DNA of 64,000 nucleotides from an uncultured Alphaproteobacteria bacterium (lineage in GTDB: Bacteria > Pseudomonadota > Alphaproteobacteria > UBA6615). The stretch is taken from the NCBI GenBank assembly GCA_943787445.1, contig CALSML010000001.1, positions 121,408-185,407 on the forward strand, in the 5' to 3' direction. Below are positions 36,593 to 59,062 of this stretch, one piece after another. How positions within the stretch are numbered: the first letter of the stretch is position 1; every line of letters starts with the position of its first letter. Both the position numbers and the translations under genes were made by a program. The notes beneath the pieces were generated by a model that made no database searches, was not told where the DNA came from, and worked only from the letters and a program-made list of their open reading frames with translations.

Positions 36593-36605
36593 CCACGCTA
36601 CCGCA
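36593..36605 (-). promoter_or_regulatory. ops-like antitermination element in the operon leader
   Basis: Read on the minus strand the sequence is TGCGGTAGCGTGG, matching the enterobacterial ops/JUMPstart core GGCGGTAGCGTG at 11 of 12 bases. It lies in the presumed leader, about 47 nt before the first start codon (36546) and about 185 nt after the promoter. GCGGT and ACCGC arms (36585-36604) could form a small stem around it. An RfaH/NusG-like protein that could use it is encoded at 55204-55716. The match is seen directly; function is inferred. Confidence 0.6.
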
Positions 36606-36608
36606 GTC

Positions 36609-36630
36609 CGGGTGAAAACAGGTTCACCCG
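36609..36630 (-). promoter_or_regulatory. leader hairpin next to the ops-like element
   Basis: A perfect 8-bp inverted repeat, CGGGTGAA and TTCACCCG, with a 6-nt loop. On the transcribed strand it comes immediately before the ops-like element (3 nt away). A further 5-bp stem (CGAGC/GCTCG) lies just upstream at 36630-36643. No U-run follows, so it is not an intrinsic terminator; a pause- or recruitment-assisting structure is more likely. Confidence 0.5.
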
Positions 36631-36781
36631 AGCTCAGGCTCGACATTGGCAGGAAAGCTGAACGGCACAGACCAGAACCTGGCGCTCACTTTCCGACCAA
36701 GAACTTTTCGGTTACGCGGACGCGTCGGCGCAACCTGTATCTTTGCGCATCATAACGCTCGTTGAGCGGATGATAATCCTT
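36631..36781. other. rest of the leader between the promoter and the hairpin
   Basis: About 150 bp without family-like coding. A 13-codon open frame (36753-36712, minus) is the only leader-peptide candidate and I do not support it. The remainder up to the promoter shows no further repeat beyond a CGCTC/GAGCG pair near 36756. Confidence 0.4.
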
Positions 36782-36819
36782 GTTCACGCCGTGAACTCGT
36801 ACGTGTTCACGGCGTGAAT
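36782..36819. promoter_or_regulatory. paired operator palindromes upstream of the 36-kb operon
   Basis: Two near-identical 15-bp sites: GTTCACGCCGTGAAC at 36782-36796 (perfect 6-bp arms) and GTTCACGGCGTGAAT at 36805-36819. Their centres are 23 bp apart, about two helical turns, and together they form a larger inverted repeat. The same motif with 22-bp centre spacing overlaps the promoter of the winged-helix regulator at 56369-56405. The upstream site here (36805-36819) fills the -35/-10 spacer of a minus-strand promoter and the other overlaps its -10, a layout expected for repression. Confidence 0.75.
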
Positions 36820-36824
36820 GTCAA
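36796..36824 (-). promoter_or_regulatory. candidate promoter for the long minus-strand operon
   Basis: On the minus strand, TTGACA (plus-strand positions 36819-36824) is a perfect -35 hexamer. A 17-bp spacer leads to TACGAG (36796-36801), a weak -10. Transcription would start near 36789 and give a leader of about 240 nt before ATG 36546. The two operators overlap the spacer and the -10/start region. The weak -10 suggests low basal activity or activator dependence. Confidence 0.55.
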
Positions 36825-51435: not shown

Positions 51436-52179
51436 TCACTGCAGACGAAACTCGATAGGAACTTCGATCTGTCCGGCTATGGCTCGCCCGTCGCGCAGAG
51501 CCGGGCGGAACGTCCAGCCGGTGACGGCTTTACGGGCAGCCGTATCGAGAATTTGATGCCCGCTGCTCTGCGCGATTTCAGTTCCGAGCACGTTTCCACT
51601 GGGCCCAATTCGGGCACGGATGATGGCCTGGCCTTCGTATCCGCGCTTTCTGGCTGCCAGCGGATAGCGGGGTTGGGTGTTGCGGCCGACCGCGATCCGG
51701 GCACCAATCGTTATCCCTGAAGCTGATGATACCGGCGTATCCGTCACCGGAATATCTGAATTGTCACTCAGGCTTGCCATGTCAGTTGCGCGCGGCCCGG
51801 GTTTGATCCGCGGAGTTGCATTGACCGTGGGCAGGATCACGTCCGTGATCTCTCTCGCGCGTGTTGCTGGTGGTGATGTAATCGCGATGGAGAGCGGTGC
51901 GTGTGCCGCAGTGATCGTGGCGGTTGCAAGGTGCGCGGTTGCAGTCGCGAGGGGTTCGTGAATGGGGGTCTCCGCTGCTGCGACATCAGTGTGAGGCATC
52001 GGCGCCTCCGAAGTCTGTGGGGCCACGGTCTGGTTTGCCTCGATCCTGATATCCACCAGATGAACGGCGACATCGTTCGGCTCCGGGTTGTCAGCGAACA
52101 GCACACCAAAGACGGCAAGATGGGCCCCCAGAGAGAGCGTGGCGCCGCCAAGCGCAAGTGGATGCAGGCCGAGTTTCAT
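51436..52179 (-). CDS. TonB-family energy transducer
   Basis: 247 residues. One N-terminal TM helix (LALGGATLSLGAHLAVFGVLFA) is followed by a long Ala/Thr/Pro-rich periplasmic linker without the usual Pro-Lys/Pro-Glu repeats. The C-terminal TonB domain (PRYPLAARKRGYEGQAIIRARIGPSGNV, DTAARKAVTGWTFRPAL) is complete. It couples the proton motive force to outer-membrane receptors. It is convergent with the receptor gene, with stop codons 12 bp apart, so the pair is functionally linked but transcribed separately. Confidence 0.88.
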   Translation of the reverse strand: MKLGLHPLALGGATLSLGAHLAVFGVLFADNPEPNDVAVHLVDIRIEANQTVAPQTSEAPMPHTDVAAAETPIHEPLATATAHLATATITAAHAPLSIAITSPPATRAREITDVILPTVNATPRIKPGPRATDMASLSDNSDIPVTDTPVSSASGITIGARIAVGRNTQPRYPLAARKRGYEGQAIIRARIGPSGNVLGTEIAQSSGHQILDTAARKAVTGWTFRPALRDGRAIAGQIEVPIEFRLQ

Positions 52180-55203: not shown

Positions 55204-55716
55204 TTAGCCGGCCGGGGCCAATGCCGTCAGAGGCATTTTGACCCGAACCTGGCGCCCCAGAAGTTCGAGCAGCAGAAAGACCCGGTGCTGATCAGAGGGG
55301 GCGTCAAAAATGCCTACATGGTCGGTCATCGCACCATCGGTAATACGGACCTTATCGCCTTTCTGCAATCCGGCATGTTCGCCCAGAATCACATACCCGC
55401 TTTCATCTTCATGCCGCTTGATATCCTCGATCACATCGTCGGGGATCGGCGCGGGCAAGCCGCTGTGACAGATCAGTTCGCTGACCCCGATGGTGGAGTT
55501 CAGCGCGCGCCAGCGCGCACGCTCGGGGTCCATACCCACGAACAGATAACCTGGAAACAGCGGTGACTGGACCGTGTCTGTCTTGCGGGCATGGCGCCGT
55601 CGTTTCAGATAGCGCGGCAGATAGCCGTCAAAACCCTGCCGCATGATATGGGCCAGCGCCTTGAACTCTCCATTCGGATGGGTGCGCACCACAAACCAGC
55701 GTTTGCTCGCTGTCAT
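55204..55716 (-). CDS. RfaH/NusG-like transcription antitermination protein
   Basis: 170 residues. The NGN domain opens WFVVRTHPNGEFKALAHIMRQGFDGYLP and contains PLFPGYLFVGMDPE, the core that contacts RNA polymerase. A C-terminal KOW region has GLQKGDKVRITDGAMTDHVGIFD, followed by VFLLLELLGRQVRVKMP. Specialised paralogues of this kind act on long surface-polysaccharide operons by binding an ops element in paused transcription complexes. Its start overlaps the stop of the winged-helix regulator by ATGA. A matching ops-like site lies at 36593-36605. Confidence 0.9.
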   Translation of the reverse strand: MTASKRWFVVRTHPNGEFKALAHIMRQGFDGYLPRYLKRRRHARKTDTVQSPLFPGYLFVGMDPERARWRALNSTIGVSELICHSGLPAPIPDDVIEDIKRHEDESGYVILGEHAGLQKGDKVRITDGAMTDHVGIFDAPSDQHRVFLLLELLGRQVRVKMPLTALAPAG

Positions 55717-56360
55717 CGCTGTGTCGCTCCCTCTTGAACTTCACGGACGCGCAGCAGAGCGGGAACGAAAATTCGGGCGGCGGGGAAGATGCCTGTCAGC
55801 TGGTCATATGTGGCTTGCGGATCGGCCAGGGTGGTCAGCAGCAATGCGTCGATATTGCCGGCGGCTTCGACGGAGTTGACCACCGGGAAGTTTGCAAAAC
55901 TGCTTTGGTCGTGTGCCGGATCGATGATGGTGACGACTTCCACGTCTGCGGCCTCGCATAGGGAGGCCACCTCGGCCAGCTCGCTCGTGCCGTAGAGGGC
56001 GATGCGGGTCCACCCGCGCTGGCTGGCATCCTGCAACGCTTCGGTGCACTGGCCGCGCGCATTGCGGAAAAAGCGAAAAGAATCCGAAAGGTATTCCGCT
56101 GTCAGACGGCCTTTCTCGGCGAAGCCCTGTGGGGTGAGGTAATAGGCATAGCGGTTGGCCGGTGCCTGGCTGACCTTGATCAGGCCTTTCTTGGCGCAAC
56201 GTTTCAGATAGGCATTCGCCAGACCAAGTGCGATGCCGAGCTCCTGTGCGACCGAACGCTGGGTGATGCGCTCGTTCTCATGCACAGCGTTGAGGATGCC
56301 CAGTGTGATCTCGGCATCTTCAGTCTTGCCCGGTGAGGATATGCGTTCAGCGTTGCTCAT
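55713..56360 (-). CDS. winged-helix transcriptional regulator, probable glycan-locus repressor
   Basis: 215 residues from ATG 56360; GGGGTGAC precedes the start closely as a Shine-Dalgarno. An N-terminal MarR-like winged helix (ITLGILNAVHENERITQRSVAQELGIAL, NAYLKRCAKKGLIKV) resembles EPS-associated MarR-type regulators. A C-terminal Rossmann-like half (RIALYGTSELAEVASLCEAADVEVVTIIDP) may sense a nucleotide or sugar ligand. The gene is preceded by paired palindromes that overlap its promoter, implying autoregulation. The same motif at 36782-36819 marks the long operon as a likely target. Confidence 0.8.
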   Translation of the reverse strand: MSNAERISSPGKTEDAEITLGILNAVHENERITQRSVAQELGIALGLANAYLKRCAKKGLIKVSQAPANRYAYYLTPQGFAEKGRLTAEYLSDSFRFFRNARGQCTEALQDASQRGWTRIALYGTSELAEVASLCEAADVEVVTIIDPAHDQSSFANFPVVNSVEAAGNIDALLLTTLADPQATYDQLTGIFPAARIFVPALLRVREVQEGATQR

Positions 56361-56368
56361 GTCACCCC

Positions 56369-56405
56369 GTTCACTCGGTGAACATAGGTCGTTCAACGAA
56401 TGAAC
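56369..56405. promoter_or_regulatory. paired operator palindromes at the regulator promoter
   Basis: GTTCACTCGGTGAAC at 56369-56383 (6-bp arms, 3-bp centre) and GTTCAACGAATGAAC at 56391-56405 (CGTTCA/TGAACG arms when extended by one base). Centres are 22 bp apart. The distal site fills the -35/-10 spacer and the proximal one overlaps the -10 and start region of the minus-strand promoter. The pair matches the site at 36782-36819 in motif and layout. Confidence 0.75.
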
Positions 56406-56410
56406 GTCAA
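56381..56410 (-). promoter_or_regulatory. promoter of the regulator-antiterminator operon
   Basis: On the minus strand TTGACG (plus 56405-56410) is a near-consensus -35, and TATGTT (plus 56381-56386) is a -10 after an 18-bp spacer. Transcription would start near 56374, about 14 nt before ATG 56360, giving a very short leader. Both operators overlap it. Confidence 0.6.
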
Positions 56411-56423
56411 GTACTTCAATGGA

Positions 56424-58343
56424 TTAGCTTGATCCAGCCGGGTTGCTGAAATTGCTTTTAACGTAAGCGACCAACGCGTCGAGACAGGACTCAACATCCT
56501 GTTCGCTGGTGTTGACGACTAGATCGGCGCTGAGCGGCGCTTCGTAGGGAGCCGATATGCCCGTGAACTCCTTGATCTCCCCTACCCGCGCGCGACGGCA
56601 CAGGCCCTTGGGGTCACGGGATTCACAGGTTGCAACATCGGCATTGATGTAAATTTCGCGGAAGGAGCCCCCGGCGGCCTCTCGGGCACGGGCACGGTCG
56701 GACCGATAGGGGGAAATGAAAGCCGTGATCACGATCCGACCGGCATCCGCCAGCAGAGCTGCGACCTCACCCACGCGCCGGATATTCTCGGCACGGTCTT
56801 CGGGTGAGAAGCCGAGATTAGCGTTCAGTCCGGTCCGCACATTGTCGCCATCGAGCACATAGACCTGATAGCCCGCGTCGAACAGGCGCTGCTCCAGTGA
56901 CATGGCTAGGGTGGATTTTCCTGCTCCCGATAGGCCTGTGAACCAGAGGACACCGGGTTGATGACGGTTGCGGGCGGCACGACGCGCATTGTCGACGGCA
57001 TGGTCGACCGCGGTCAGGTTCGATGAACGTATGGTGGTGAGTTCGCGCTGGTCCGGATAGTCACCCATGGACACGACGCCACCACCCAAAGTGCGGTGCC
57101 GGTCGCATAGAAGGACGCGGGCAGTGCGTGGCAGGGAATCGTGATCATCAAGGGCGACAAGCTGATTGGTGCGGATCACCACGTCAGCGATTTCATCACG
57201 CGTCACCTCCTCAGCACTCTGATCGGTCAGTGCGTCGACATCGATGACCCGTTCGATACGTTCAACCGCGCCGGTCAGCTGTTGTGGTCCCAGTTTCAGA
57301 TCATAGCTTGCACCAACAACTAGGGGGGTGTCGGCCAGCCAGAAGAGGCGCAGATGAAAGACGTCGGTTTCAATGGGAGGGTCGGCGAGATGGCTGACGA
57401 TTTCGCCACGTTCGACAAAAATCTGTTCATCGAGCATGATTCCCACGGACTGACCGGCAGATGCAGTATCCGGTGACTCGTTGGTATTCCAGCCTTCGAT
57501 GGAGGCGATCCGTGCGGTGCGGTTGCTGGGTGAAAACAAAAGTTCATCGTCGGTCTTCAGTGAACCGGATTCGATGCGGCCGGCCAGAATACGGCGTTCG
57601 TCAAACTTGTAGATATCCTGCAATGGCAATCGCAAGGGCAGACCGCTGGGAGATTTCGGGTGTTGGAATTCGGCCACCGTGTCGATCACCGTGGGGCCGT
57701 CATACCAGCCCATACGATCGGAAATGGTGGCGACGTTGTCGCCTTCGCGCGCGGAAATCGGTATGACGCGCCGGGCGGTGACCCCGATACTCTCGAGATA
57801 GGAGAGATATTCGATCTCGATCTCCCGAAACCGGGTTTCGTCGTAATCCACCAGATCCATCTTGTTGATCGCAACGGCGACCTCACGGACGCCGAGCAGT
57901 TGCAACAGGTGGCTGTGGGGCCGCGATTGCCGGCGGACACCCTGATCGGCATCGATCATGAGCAGCGCGGCATCGGCATTGGAGGCACCGGTGACCATGT
58001 TCCGAATGAATTCACGATGCCCGGGGGCATCGATGATGACGTATTGGCGTGTGTCGTGGCGGAACCAGATCTGTGAGGTGTCGATGGTCACGCCCTGATC
58101 GCGTTCTGCCTTCAGGCTGTCCATGAGAAAAGCCCATTCGAACGGCATCCCGCGCTGGCGGCACATTTCCCGAATGGCGTCCAGCTTTCCGTTCGGCAGT
58201 TGTCCGGTATCATGAAACATGCGCCCCACGAGGGTGGATTTACCGTGATCGACATGCCCGAGGATCACCACGCGTATTAGTTCATCACTTGCGCTGGCGG
58301 TGTGTAATTCCGAACTCTCCGGGGTGGCCGGATCGGACATCAC
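56424..58343 (-). CDS. cysNC: bifunctional sulfate adenylyltransferase subunit 1 / APS kinase (CysNC)
   Basis: 639 residues. The GTPase half has [18 protein letters not shown] (G1), [12 protein letters not shown] (G3) and [11 protein letters not shown] (G4). From about residue 450 the adenylylsulfate kinase follows with [21 protein letters not shown] and [18 protein letters not shown]. With CysD it makes APS and then PAPS, the donor for sulfation. It overlaps the cysD stop, starting at GTG 58343 (GTGA) or ATG 58340. Presence in a glycan locus suggests a sulfated polymer, though a general assimilation role is also possible. Confidence 0.93.
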
Positions 58344-59062
58344 ACATATCCTGATGTGCGCAGGCGTTCGAAGGAATCTTCAGCTTCCGTGTCCATCAGG
58401 CGCCCGGCCCGTTCGGGCGCATGCGTGGTTGCAAGCTCAGCAATGATCTCTTCGATAGTCGCAGCCTGGCTTTCGATGGGCGCCGTGATGTTCTTCTCGC
58501 CCAGTGAGCGATAGCGTGTCCCGTTCTTCGCAAAATACAGAGCGTTGATCGGTATATTCTCCCGTTGGGAGTAGCGCCAGATATCCACCTCGGTCCAGTG
58601 TAGCAGCGGGTGGATGCGCAGATGTGTACCGTCTGGTGTATCGGTGGCGAACTGGTCCCAGAATTCGGCGGGCTGGTCGCCTCTTCGTTACGGCGGATGC
58701 CCACAACAATTCCCTTGTAGGTGTCGTTTGAAAGAAGTTTGACCAGACCTGCGGTTTTCCGCGCTGCCGCCCGTGTCATGGGAGGGAGGTCCGGATCCAT
58801 TTCGTCTTCGGGCGGGCAGTCGATCACAACCAAATCAAGATCCCATTCCTTGGCGTAGCGGTCACGATAGGCATAGACCTCGTCGAGCTCCATGCCCGTG
58901 TCGAGTTGCACGACAGGGAAGGGCACGCGTCCGAAGAACGCCTTGCGAGCCAGCCACAGAACAACGTTGGAATCCTTCCCGACTGACCAGAGTACGGGCG
59001 GTGGCATAGGCTTCGCGCAGGATAAACACGCTTTGGGCTTCAAGGGTGTCGAGACGGTCCAT
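58340..59062 (-). pseudogene. cysD: sulfate adenylyltransferase subunit 2 (CysD), two frame breaks
   Basis: ATG 59062 starts MDRLDTLEAQSVFILREAYA. In the next frame WSVGKDSNVVLWLARKAFFGRVPFPVVQLDTG gives the PP-loop SxGKDS and the following strand. After a second break near 58680, FWDQFATDTPDGTHLRIHPLLHW and the C-terminus to 58340 follow. The first break is near 59000. The combined length of about 240 residues is slightly short of the usual 300, because a stretch before the second break appears lost. Its partner CysNC is intact, so I suspect sequence errors, but a real deletion cannot be excluded. Confidence 0.85.

Follow-up and report, generated by a model that had tools for sequence, protein, structure and literature searches.

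The window, a stretch of 64,000 nt of DNA from an uncultured alphaproteobacterium, carries on its minus strand two genes that overlap by 4 nt (ATGA, 55713-55716). The first one (55713-56360) encodes a regulator of 215 aa with an N-terminal winged helix (HTH_24/MarR-like) and a C-terminal Rossmann-like domain, which covers approximately residues 117-205. The second one (55204-55716) encodes an RfaH-like NusG paralog of 170 aa composed of an NGN and a KOW domain. With respect to the start of the regulator, sequence conservation prefers the ATG at 56360 over the TTG at 56396 that was called mechanically.

The regulator matches the Pfam family HTH_24 (2.4e-12). Its winged helix is located in a polysaccharide locus, as in the setting of MarR_EPS (TIGR04176); the score against this model is 60.6 bits, over residues 17-95 only and below the curated cut-off of 88. 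The C-terminal domain is modeled with confidence (pLDDT ~92-97) and the winged helix poorly. In VIA-align comparisons of the C-terminal domain, WbaP (Z 9.6, 86 residues) was tied with an uncharacterised protein and with Rex repressors (Z ~9). Foldseek searches with the whole regulator model were dominated by poor full-length alignments, and nothing convincing emerged when its profile was searched against solved structures. In Rex redox repressors, too, a winged helix precedes a Rossmann-like domain, one that binds NAD(H), and the fold match to the C-terminal half is the one mentioned above (Z ~9). No convincing sequence relationship between the regulator and Rex was found, and the Rex operator differs from the palindrome described below. 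From the modeled fold, it is plausible that the C-terminal domain binds a small-molecule ligand.

The NGN domain of the RfaH-like protein matches Pfam NusG (2.9e-19), and its closest solved structures are E. coli RfaH chains (1e-16). Its score against the RfaH model (TIGR01955), about 124 bits, is under the curated cut-off of 144.5, a value that is exceeded in none of 289 genomes of the class. The same model detects two NusG-family proteins in the genome of the window, the copy on G000:C1 with 123.6 bits and that on G000:C19 with 58.9 bits. The RfaH-like protein is, thus, a specialized NusG paralog (NusG-SP) that exists beside a housekeeping NusG. In the AlphaFold2 prediction the KOW domain is a β-barrel (pLDDT ~84-91), a prediction that is compatible with fold switching; because of this β-barrel, autoinhibition of the RfaH type is unproven. 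Among 56 aligned sequences, and following E. coli RfaH numbering, neither of the DNA-contact residues K10 (H, Q, R or K) and R73 (mainly I or V) is kept. Of the positions related to autoinhibition, E48 is lost (A, V, T or S), position 93 is V or I in all 56 sequences, and F130 is present in 52. Other positions that are kept are T72 (53/56), G74, and R138.

Two copies of a 15-bp palindrome, GTTCAN5TGAAC, precede the regulator gene: operator 1 (GTTCATTCGTTGAAC on the minus strand, 56391-56405) and operator 2 (GTTCACCGAGTGAAC on the minus strand, 56369-56383), with 22 bp from center to center. Both overlap a putative promoter on the minus strand (56381-56410), in which TTGACG (56410-56405) and TATGTT (56386-56381) are separated by 18 nt. 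A second pair (36819-36782) is located before a long run of glycan genes. It is formed by target operator 1 (ATTCACGCCGTGAAC on the minus strand, 36805-36819), which has one mismatch and completes the pair, and target operator 2 (GTTCACGGCGTGAAC on the minus strand, 36782-36796), at 23 bp from the former. A TTGACA hexamer resembling a -35 region (36819-36824, minus strand) abuts target operator 1; the target -10 is weak (TACGAG, region 36801-36796) and was absent from the output of the promoter scan. This overlap of operators with -35 and -10 regions points to a repressor geometry. The exact pattern GTTCAN{3,7}TGAAC occurs three times in the window (36782, 56369, and 56391), while 0.21 occurrences are expected, and none of 100 shuffled sequences contained three or more. 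Aside from one overlapping weak match, the genome of the window contains these two operator pairs; matches with three mismatches that overlapped a stronger pair, or that had no link to the element described below, were excluded as targets.

The regulator gene is preceded by genes for a CysN/C-like protein and a CysD-like protein (the latter assigned by eye), involved in sulfate activation (56424-58588). The glycan could possibly be sulfated, given the neighboring CysN/C-like genes. The cysNC end at 56424 is just 13 nt from the -35 of the regulator promoter, so that read-through from upstream into the regulator is possible and could bypass that promoter, and no terminator-like site was found between the two. 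Transcription coming from the cysDNC-like genes could be what mainly sets the expression of regulator and RfaH-like protein, the operator only trimming it. However, the upstream DNA differs at other loci (e.g., L009 and L147) while operator and promoter persist, and a bound repressor may also act as a roadblock for such read-through. We regard this explanation as unlikely.

The target is a run of glycan genes on the same strand (192-36517, minus), whose orientation and spacing suggest a single operon. A scan covering part of its ORFs gave Pfam matches for 19 of the 30 proteins scanned between 36517 and 192. The gene products include NeuB, three cytidylyltransferases, two DegT aminotransferases, HisF- and HisH-like proteins, formyl- and acyltransferases, and an asparagine synthase-like protein, a content that suits a surface glycan containing a nonulosonate.

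The untranslated leader of this run contains an ops-like element, TTCACCCGGACTGCGGTAGCGTG (36594-36616, minus strand), whose core GCGGTAGC is at 36604-36597; it is the sole copy found in the genome of the window. A shorter ops-like string, TGCGGTAGCGTG, can be read at 36605-36594 of the minus strand. The element begins approximately 165 nt past target operator 2, about 0.2 kb from the operator pair. The element of the window type contains the ops core bases, which PMC6391919 describes for E. coli as C3 to G8; in the alphaproteobacterial cassette these are accompanied by a conserved 5' extension of 12 nt, TTCACCCGGACT. Just 5' of the ops core, the arms CGGGTGAA (36630-36623) and TTCACCCG (36616-36609) could form a hairpin (36609-36630, minus strand).

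Short strings of this kind are not informative by themselves. The ops-like 12-mer with up to two mismatches is not enriched in the window (29 occurrences vs. 23 expected), and the core GCGGTAGC alone is not enriched in the 80 loci described below (84 occurrences, whereas its reversal has 377). GCGGTAGCNTG was found 13 times, and its reversed string seven times, and was not counted as evidence. The significance of the element rests on its extended form and its position, not on the 8-mer alone. A search of 30 chosen genomes for the extended element TTCACCCGGACTGCGGTAGCNTG, with up to three mismatches, gave 20 copies, spread over 18 of them, and no copy of the reversed control; although mismatches were permitted anywhere, the core is kept in 19 of the 20 copies. 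An operator is found 54-244 bp upstream of 13 of these copies. Six others are located behind an RfaH-like gene (five assigned by motif and that of G283 by its coordinates, at 57 bp), and one behind the regulator alone (G036). Each carrying genome has one or two copies, and in the assembly of the window (89% complete) the single copy is that of the target. No copy was found in the four genomes that lack the regulator (G006, G013, G014, and G018), nor, genome-wide and at the same threshold, in eight of the 26 regulator-bearing genomes, several of them fragmented assemblies and one of them the close relative G003.

In some of the sets of elements the presence of GCGGTAGC and CACC was required for selection, so that the conservation of these letters in such sets is by construction. 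Three of 57 candidate elements (two at L124 and one at L172) were removed as likely chance matches without the extended element, and the alignment (A3) contains 52 of the remaining 54, since two near-duplicates were omitted. In most elements the end of the hairpin is close upstream of the core. Hairpin arms pair better with their own 5' arms (19.1) than with permuted ones (16.9), a difference reached in 0 of 2000 permutations uncorrected for kinship. Several single elements have own arms that pair no better than foreign arms, the folds of single elements gave mixed values (z -1.4, -3.0, -1.8, and 0.1), and Rfam searches in nine sources returned nothing up to E = 1.

The pair of genes is widely distributed in Alphaproteobacteria. 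Of 60 relative genomes, 25 carry the regulator, and a scan of contigs yielded at least 537 relatives, mostly in alphaproteobacterial MAGs, of which the best 80 loci were analyzed. Cultured carriers include Hwanghaeella grinnelliae Gri0909 (locus L154) and strain LM-1 (L170). Of the 80 loci, 78 have an RfaH-like frame that shares the strand of the regulator and lies at it or just behind it, the exceptions being L104, where the contig end cuts it, and L149. All of the 79 loci with enough upstream DNA have the palindrome (with up to one mismatch) upstream of the regulator, 75 of them two or more copies, and in 73 of the 79 TTGAC abuts an operator; center spacing is mostly 22-24 bp. Away from the regulator, only three further operator pairs were found in 1.23 Mb. 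Those of L123 and L149 precede ops-like elements, and that of L174 is located some 300 bp from the regulator gene, on its upstream side. At L104, L119, L124, L128, and L129, clusters of three or four operators upstream of the regulator serve both its promoter and a divergent transcript that bears the ops-like element.

In the 289 genomes of the class, the regulator is present in 69, an RfaH-like protein of at least 86 bits in 70, both in 59, and neither in 209 (Fisher p 2e-39, uncorrected for kinship). Ten genomes have the regulator and no RfaH-like protein of at least 86 bits, and 11 show the reverse situation. Matches below 86 bits were excluded from the paralog count, and G244 and G301 (broken or very weak matches), as well as second fragments of single proteins, were omitted from the co-occurrence count. 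The paralog follows immediately after 52 of 71 regulator matches. No regulator was found in viral contigs. A strict operator pair is present in 28 of the 289 genomes, all of them regulator carriers (compared by eye), and in none of the 220 genomes without regulator; the reversed pattern is absent from all 289.

These data also bear on whether the palindromes serve the regulator as a repressor. Binding of the regulator to them is a prediction, and some loci have three or four sites, so it could be imagined that the regulator is an activator or that another protein uses the palindromes. However, the sites cover the spacer and the -10 right after TTGAC in 73 of 79 loci, as would suit a repressor, and all 28 genomes with the strict pair carry the regulator. 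An activator or a different binding protein is, in our opinion, very unlikely, and repression by the regulator is the reading followed here.

A different doubt concerns the element, which might be a mere pause site or RNA structure, the NusG paralog acting through RNA polymerase in general or elsewhere. The loss of E. coli RfaH residues K10, R73, and E48, the NusG-like β fold predicted for the KOW domain, and the existence of loci with regulator and RfaH-like gene but without the element in the locus DNA examined are in line with this idea. Against it stand the facts that element and paralog accompany each other across genera, that the element is present once or twice per carrying genome and 50-99 bp past the rfaH-like gene in fused loci, and that V/I at position 93, F130, and R138 are kept. 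On balance we judge it improbable, and recruitment of the paralog at the element is preferred.

Two ARRANGEMENTS can be distinguished among the 80 loci, a fused unit and a split form, the latter being that of the window. These loci contain 43 elements in 42 loci, and the element is absent from the locus DNA examined in the other 38. In the fused form, to which 29 of the 43 elements belong, the element lies 50-99 bp past the rfaH-like gene and a second operator promoter is absent; here regulator, antiterminator, and glycan genes apparently make up one transcription unit. Of the other elements, 10 are behind their own operator, two are both, and two are neither by the limits used (L149). At L088 7219-8200 (G036:C74), the regulator is followed directly by the ops-like element and a transporter-like gene, and the RfaH-like gene is on another contig. 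A Chelatococcus plasmid (L176 5898-6687) carries a two-domain regulator with the operator pair upstream of it and gmd behind it, and no RfaH-like gene is annotated adjacent to it.

The earlier note had described a winged-helix regulator coupled to an RfaH-like gene, a Rossmann-like half in the regulator, a single operator common to the regulator promoter and the long operon, and an ops-like site carried by that operon. The two minus-strand ORFs and their overlap were found in place, the model of the C-terminal half agrees with the second claim through its WbaP- and Rex-type neighbors, and the palindrome pairs at both promoters, conserved across Alphaproteobacteria, argue for a common operator. 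The ops-like site is a single element whose placement is conserved among genomes.

From the observed anatomy, conservation, co-occurrence, and exclusivity of the sites we infer binding, repression, pausing, and recruitment, and we consider it likely that a dedicated repressor gates the initiation of both antiterminator and target, the former being loaded at the ops of the latter. The winged-helix regulator would bind the paired GTTCAN5TGAAC sites on approximately the same face of the DNA (22-23 bp apart) and would block RNA polymerase at two promoters, its own and that of the glycan operon. Once the regulator is released, the RfaH-like protein would be made from the second gene. RNA polymerase coming from the target promoter would pause at the ops-like element, perhaps aided by the short hairpin, and take up the RfaH-like protein, so that the long operon could be transcribed to its end. 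Release of the repressor would thus raise initiation and elongation together. As a weak suggestion from the modeled fold, the C-terminal domain would be the probable sensor of a small molecule, possibly a nucleotide or nucleotide sugar.

Since the regulator would repress itself, the circuit combines a coherent feed-forward arm with negative autoregulation, which speaks against a simple bistable switch, and is not proven to be bistable. Of the feed-forward switch proposed in the earlier note, the shared operator, the RfaH-like partner, the single target ops, and their conservation hold at the level of sequence, but a specifically on/off expression of the glycan is not supported: the regulator lies within the operon that it would repress, and 29 of 43 elements are in fused units. 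The same autoregulation could instead steady the regulator and the antiterminator, the glycan output being graded and tuned by a metabolite. This possibility agrees with the presence of an operator before the regulator's own gene in all 79 testable loci and with the fused form, in which regulator, antiterminator, and glycan genes seem to be under one promoter. However, cooperative binding to paired operators could still yield steep responses, and dynamics are unreadable from sequence. We find this alternative as easy to accept as to doubt, and graded or homeostatic behavior has the same likelihood as an on/off switch.

The promoter-to-ops leader of the window (230 nt, 36594-36824) resembles that at L195 1290-1530 in G019, which belongs to another genus. 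The first genes behind these similar leaders differ, and an alignment of six long leaders showed no likeness beyond those of the window and G019. This could possibly reflect the exchange of cassettes behind a constant leader. More tentatively, the whole system might be an old, portable cassette of Alphaproteobacteria, its sensor-repressor reading a metabolite of the glycan pathway by means of the Rossmann-like domain and jointly gating initiation and elongation of surface-glycan operons, while glycan clusters are exchanged behind a constant leader of operator, hairpin, and ops; if this were true, the leader common to the window and G019 would be an instance of such exchange. G019 also has, on C68 (L199 ~1435-1600), a second operator and ops-like element before a gene resembling that for the protein at 51436-52179 of the window, which is TonB-like by eye, indicating that some genomes have a second target. 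No operator or ops-like site was seen at the 51436-52179 gene itself.

RfaH, ops, specialized NusG paralogs, and MarR_EPS were already known, and the cassette is an extension of RfaH/ops biology. It shares with E. coli RfaH and ops/JUMPstart a NusG paralog with NGN and KOW domains, a long polysaccharide operon, and an element in the untranslated leader. In contrast to E. coli, the gene of the antiterminator stands together with that of its presumed repressor, whose operator also serves the target, the DNA-contact residues differ, the KOW domain is predicted as β, and the element has the 12-nt 5' extension. In the available part of Wang et al. 2020 (PMC7593976), an association between the RfaH cluster CL4 and an HTH regulator is noted, the RfaH-like protein adjoining both this regulator and envelope genes. 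CL4 probably includes the cassette group of the window. However, what that part of PMC7593976 gives is a neighborhood association, without operator, repression, target element, or circuit, and the words "repressor" and "MarR" have no matches in its main text. As described in the same part of that source, Bacteroides UpxY/UpxZ also combine a specialized NusG paralog and a dedicated partner on capsule operons, but UpxZ interferes with other upx operons and is not described there as a DNA-binding repressor of initiation. Our literature search, with subscription papers mostly outside its scope, found no paper on such a repressor-antiterminator pair, nor any account of its operator, of the extended element, or of the circuit.

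According to the available part of PMC7593976, the recruitment mechanism of RfaH is known in detail only in E. coli. A large alphaproteobacterial group that combines an RfaH-like factor and its presumed repressor with a defined operator and with a long, conserved element of the ops type makes recruitment directly testable in a second lineage. It also provides a predicted regulon for each genome, often of one or two promoters, and suggests how Alphaproteobacteria keep surface-glycan operons silent or expressed.

The MarR_EPS proteins, which share with the regulator the winged helix and the glycan-locus context, are short (~115-120 aa) and lack the Rossmann-like half. In the three Rhodobacterales plasmids examined (L177 5860-6354, L178 5860-6351, and L179 5850-6330), GTTCAN4TGAAC and GCGGTAGC are located directly before short MarR_EPS genes. 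These loci lie in exopolysaccharide clusters, two of the three with a NusG-family gene nearby, and suggest a wider family in which the two-domain regulator of the window would be one branch.
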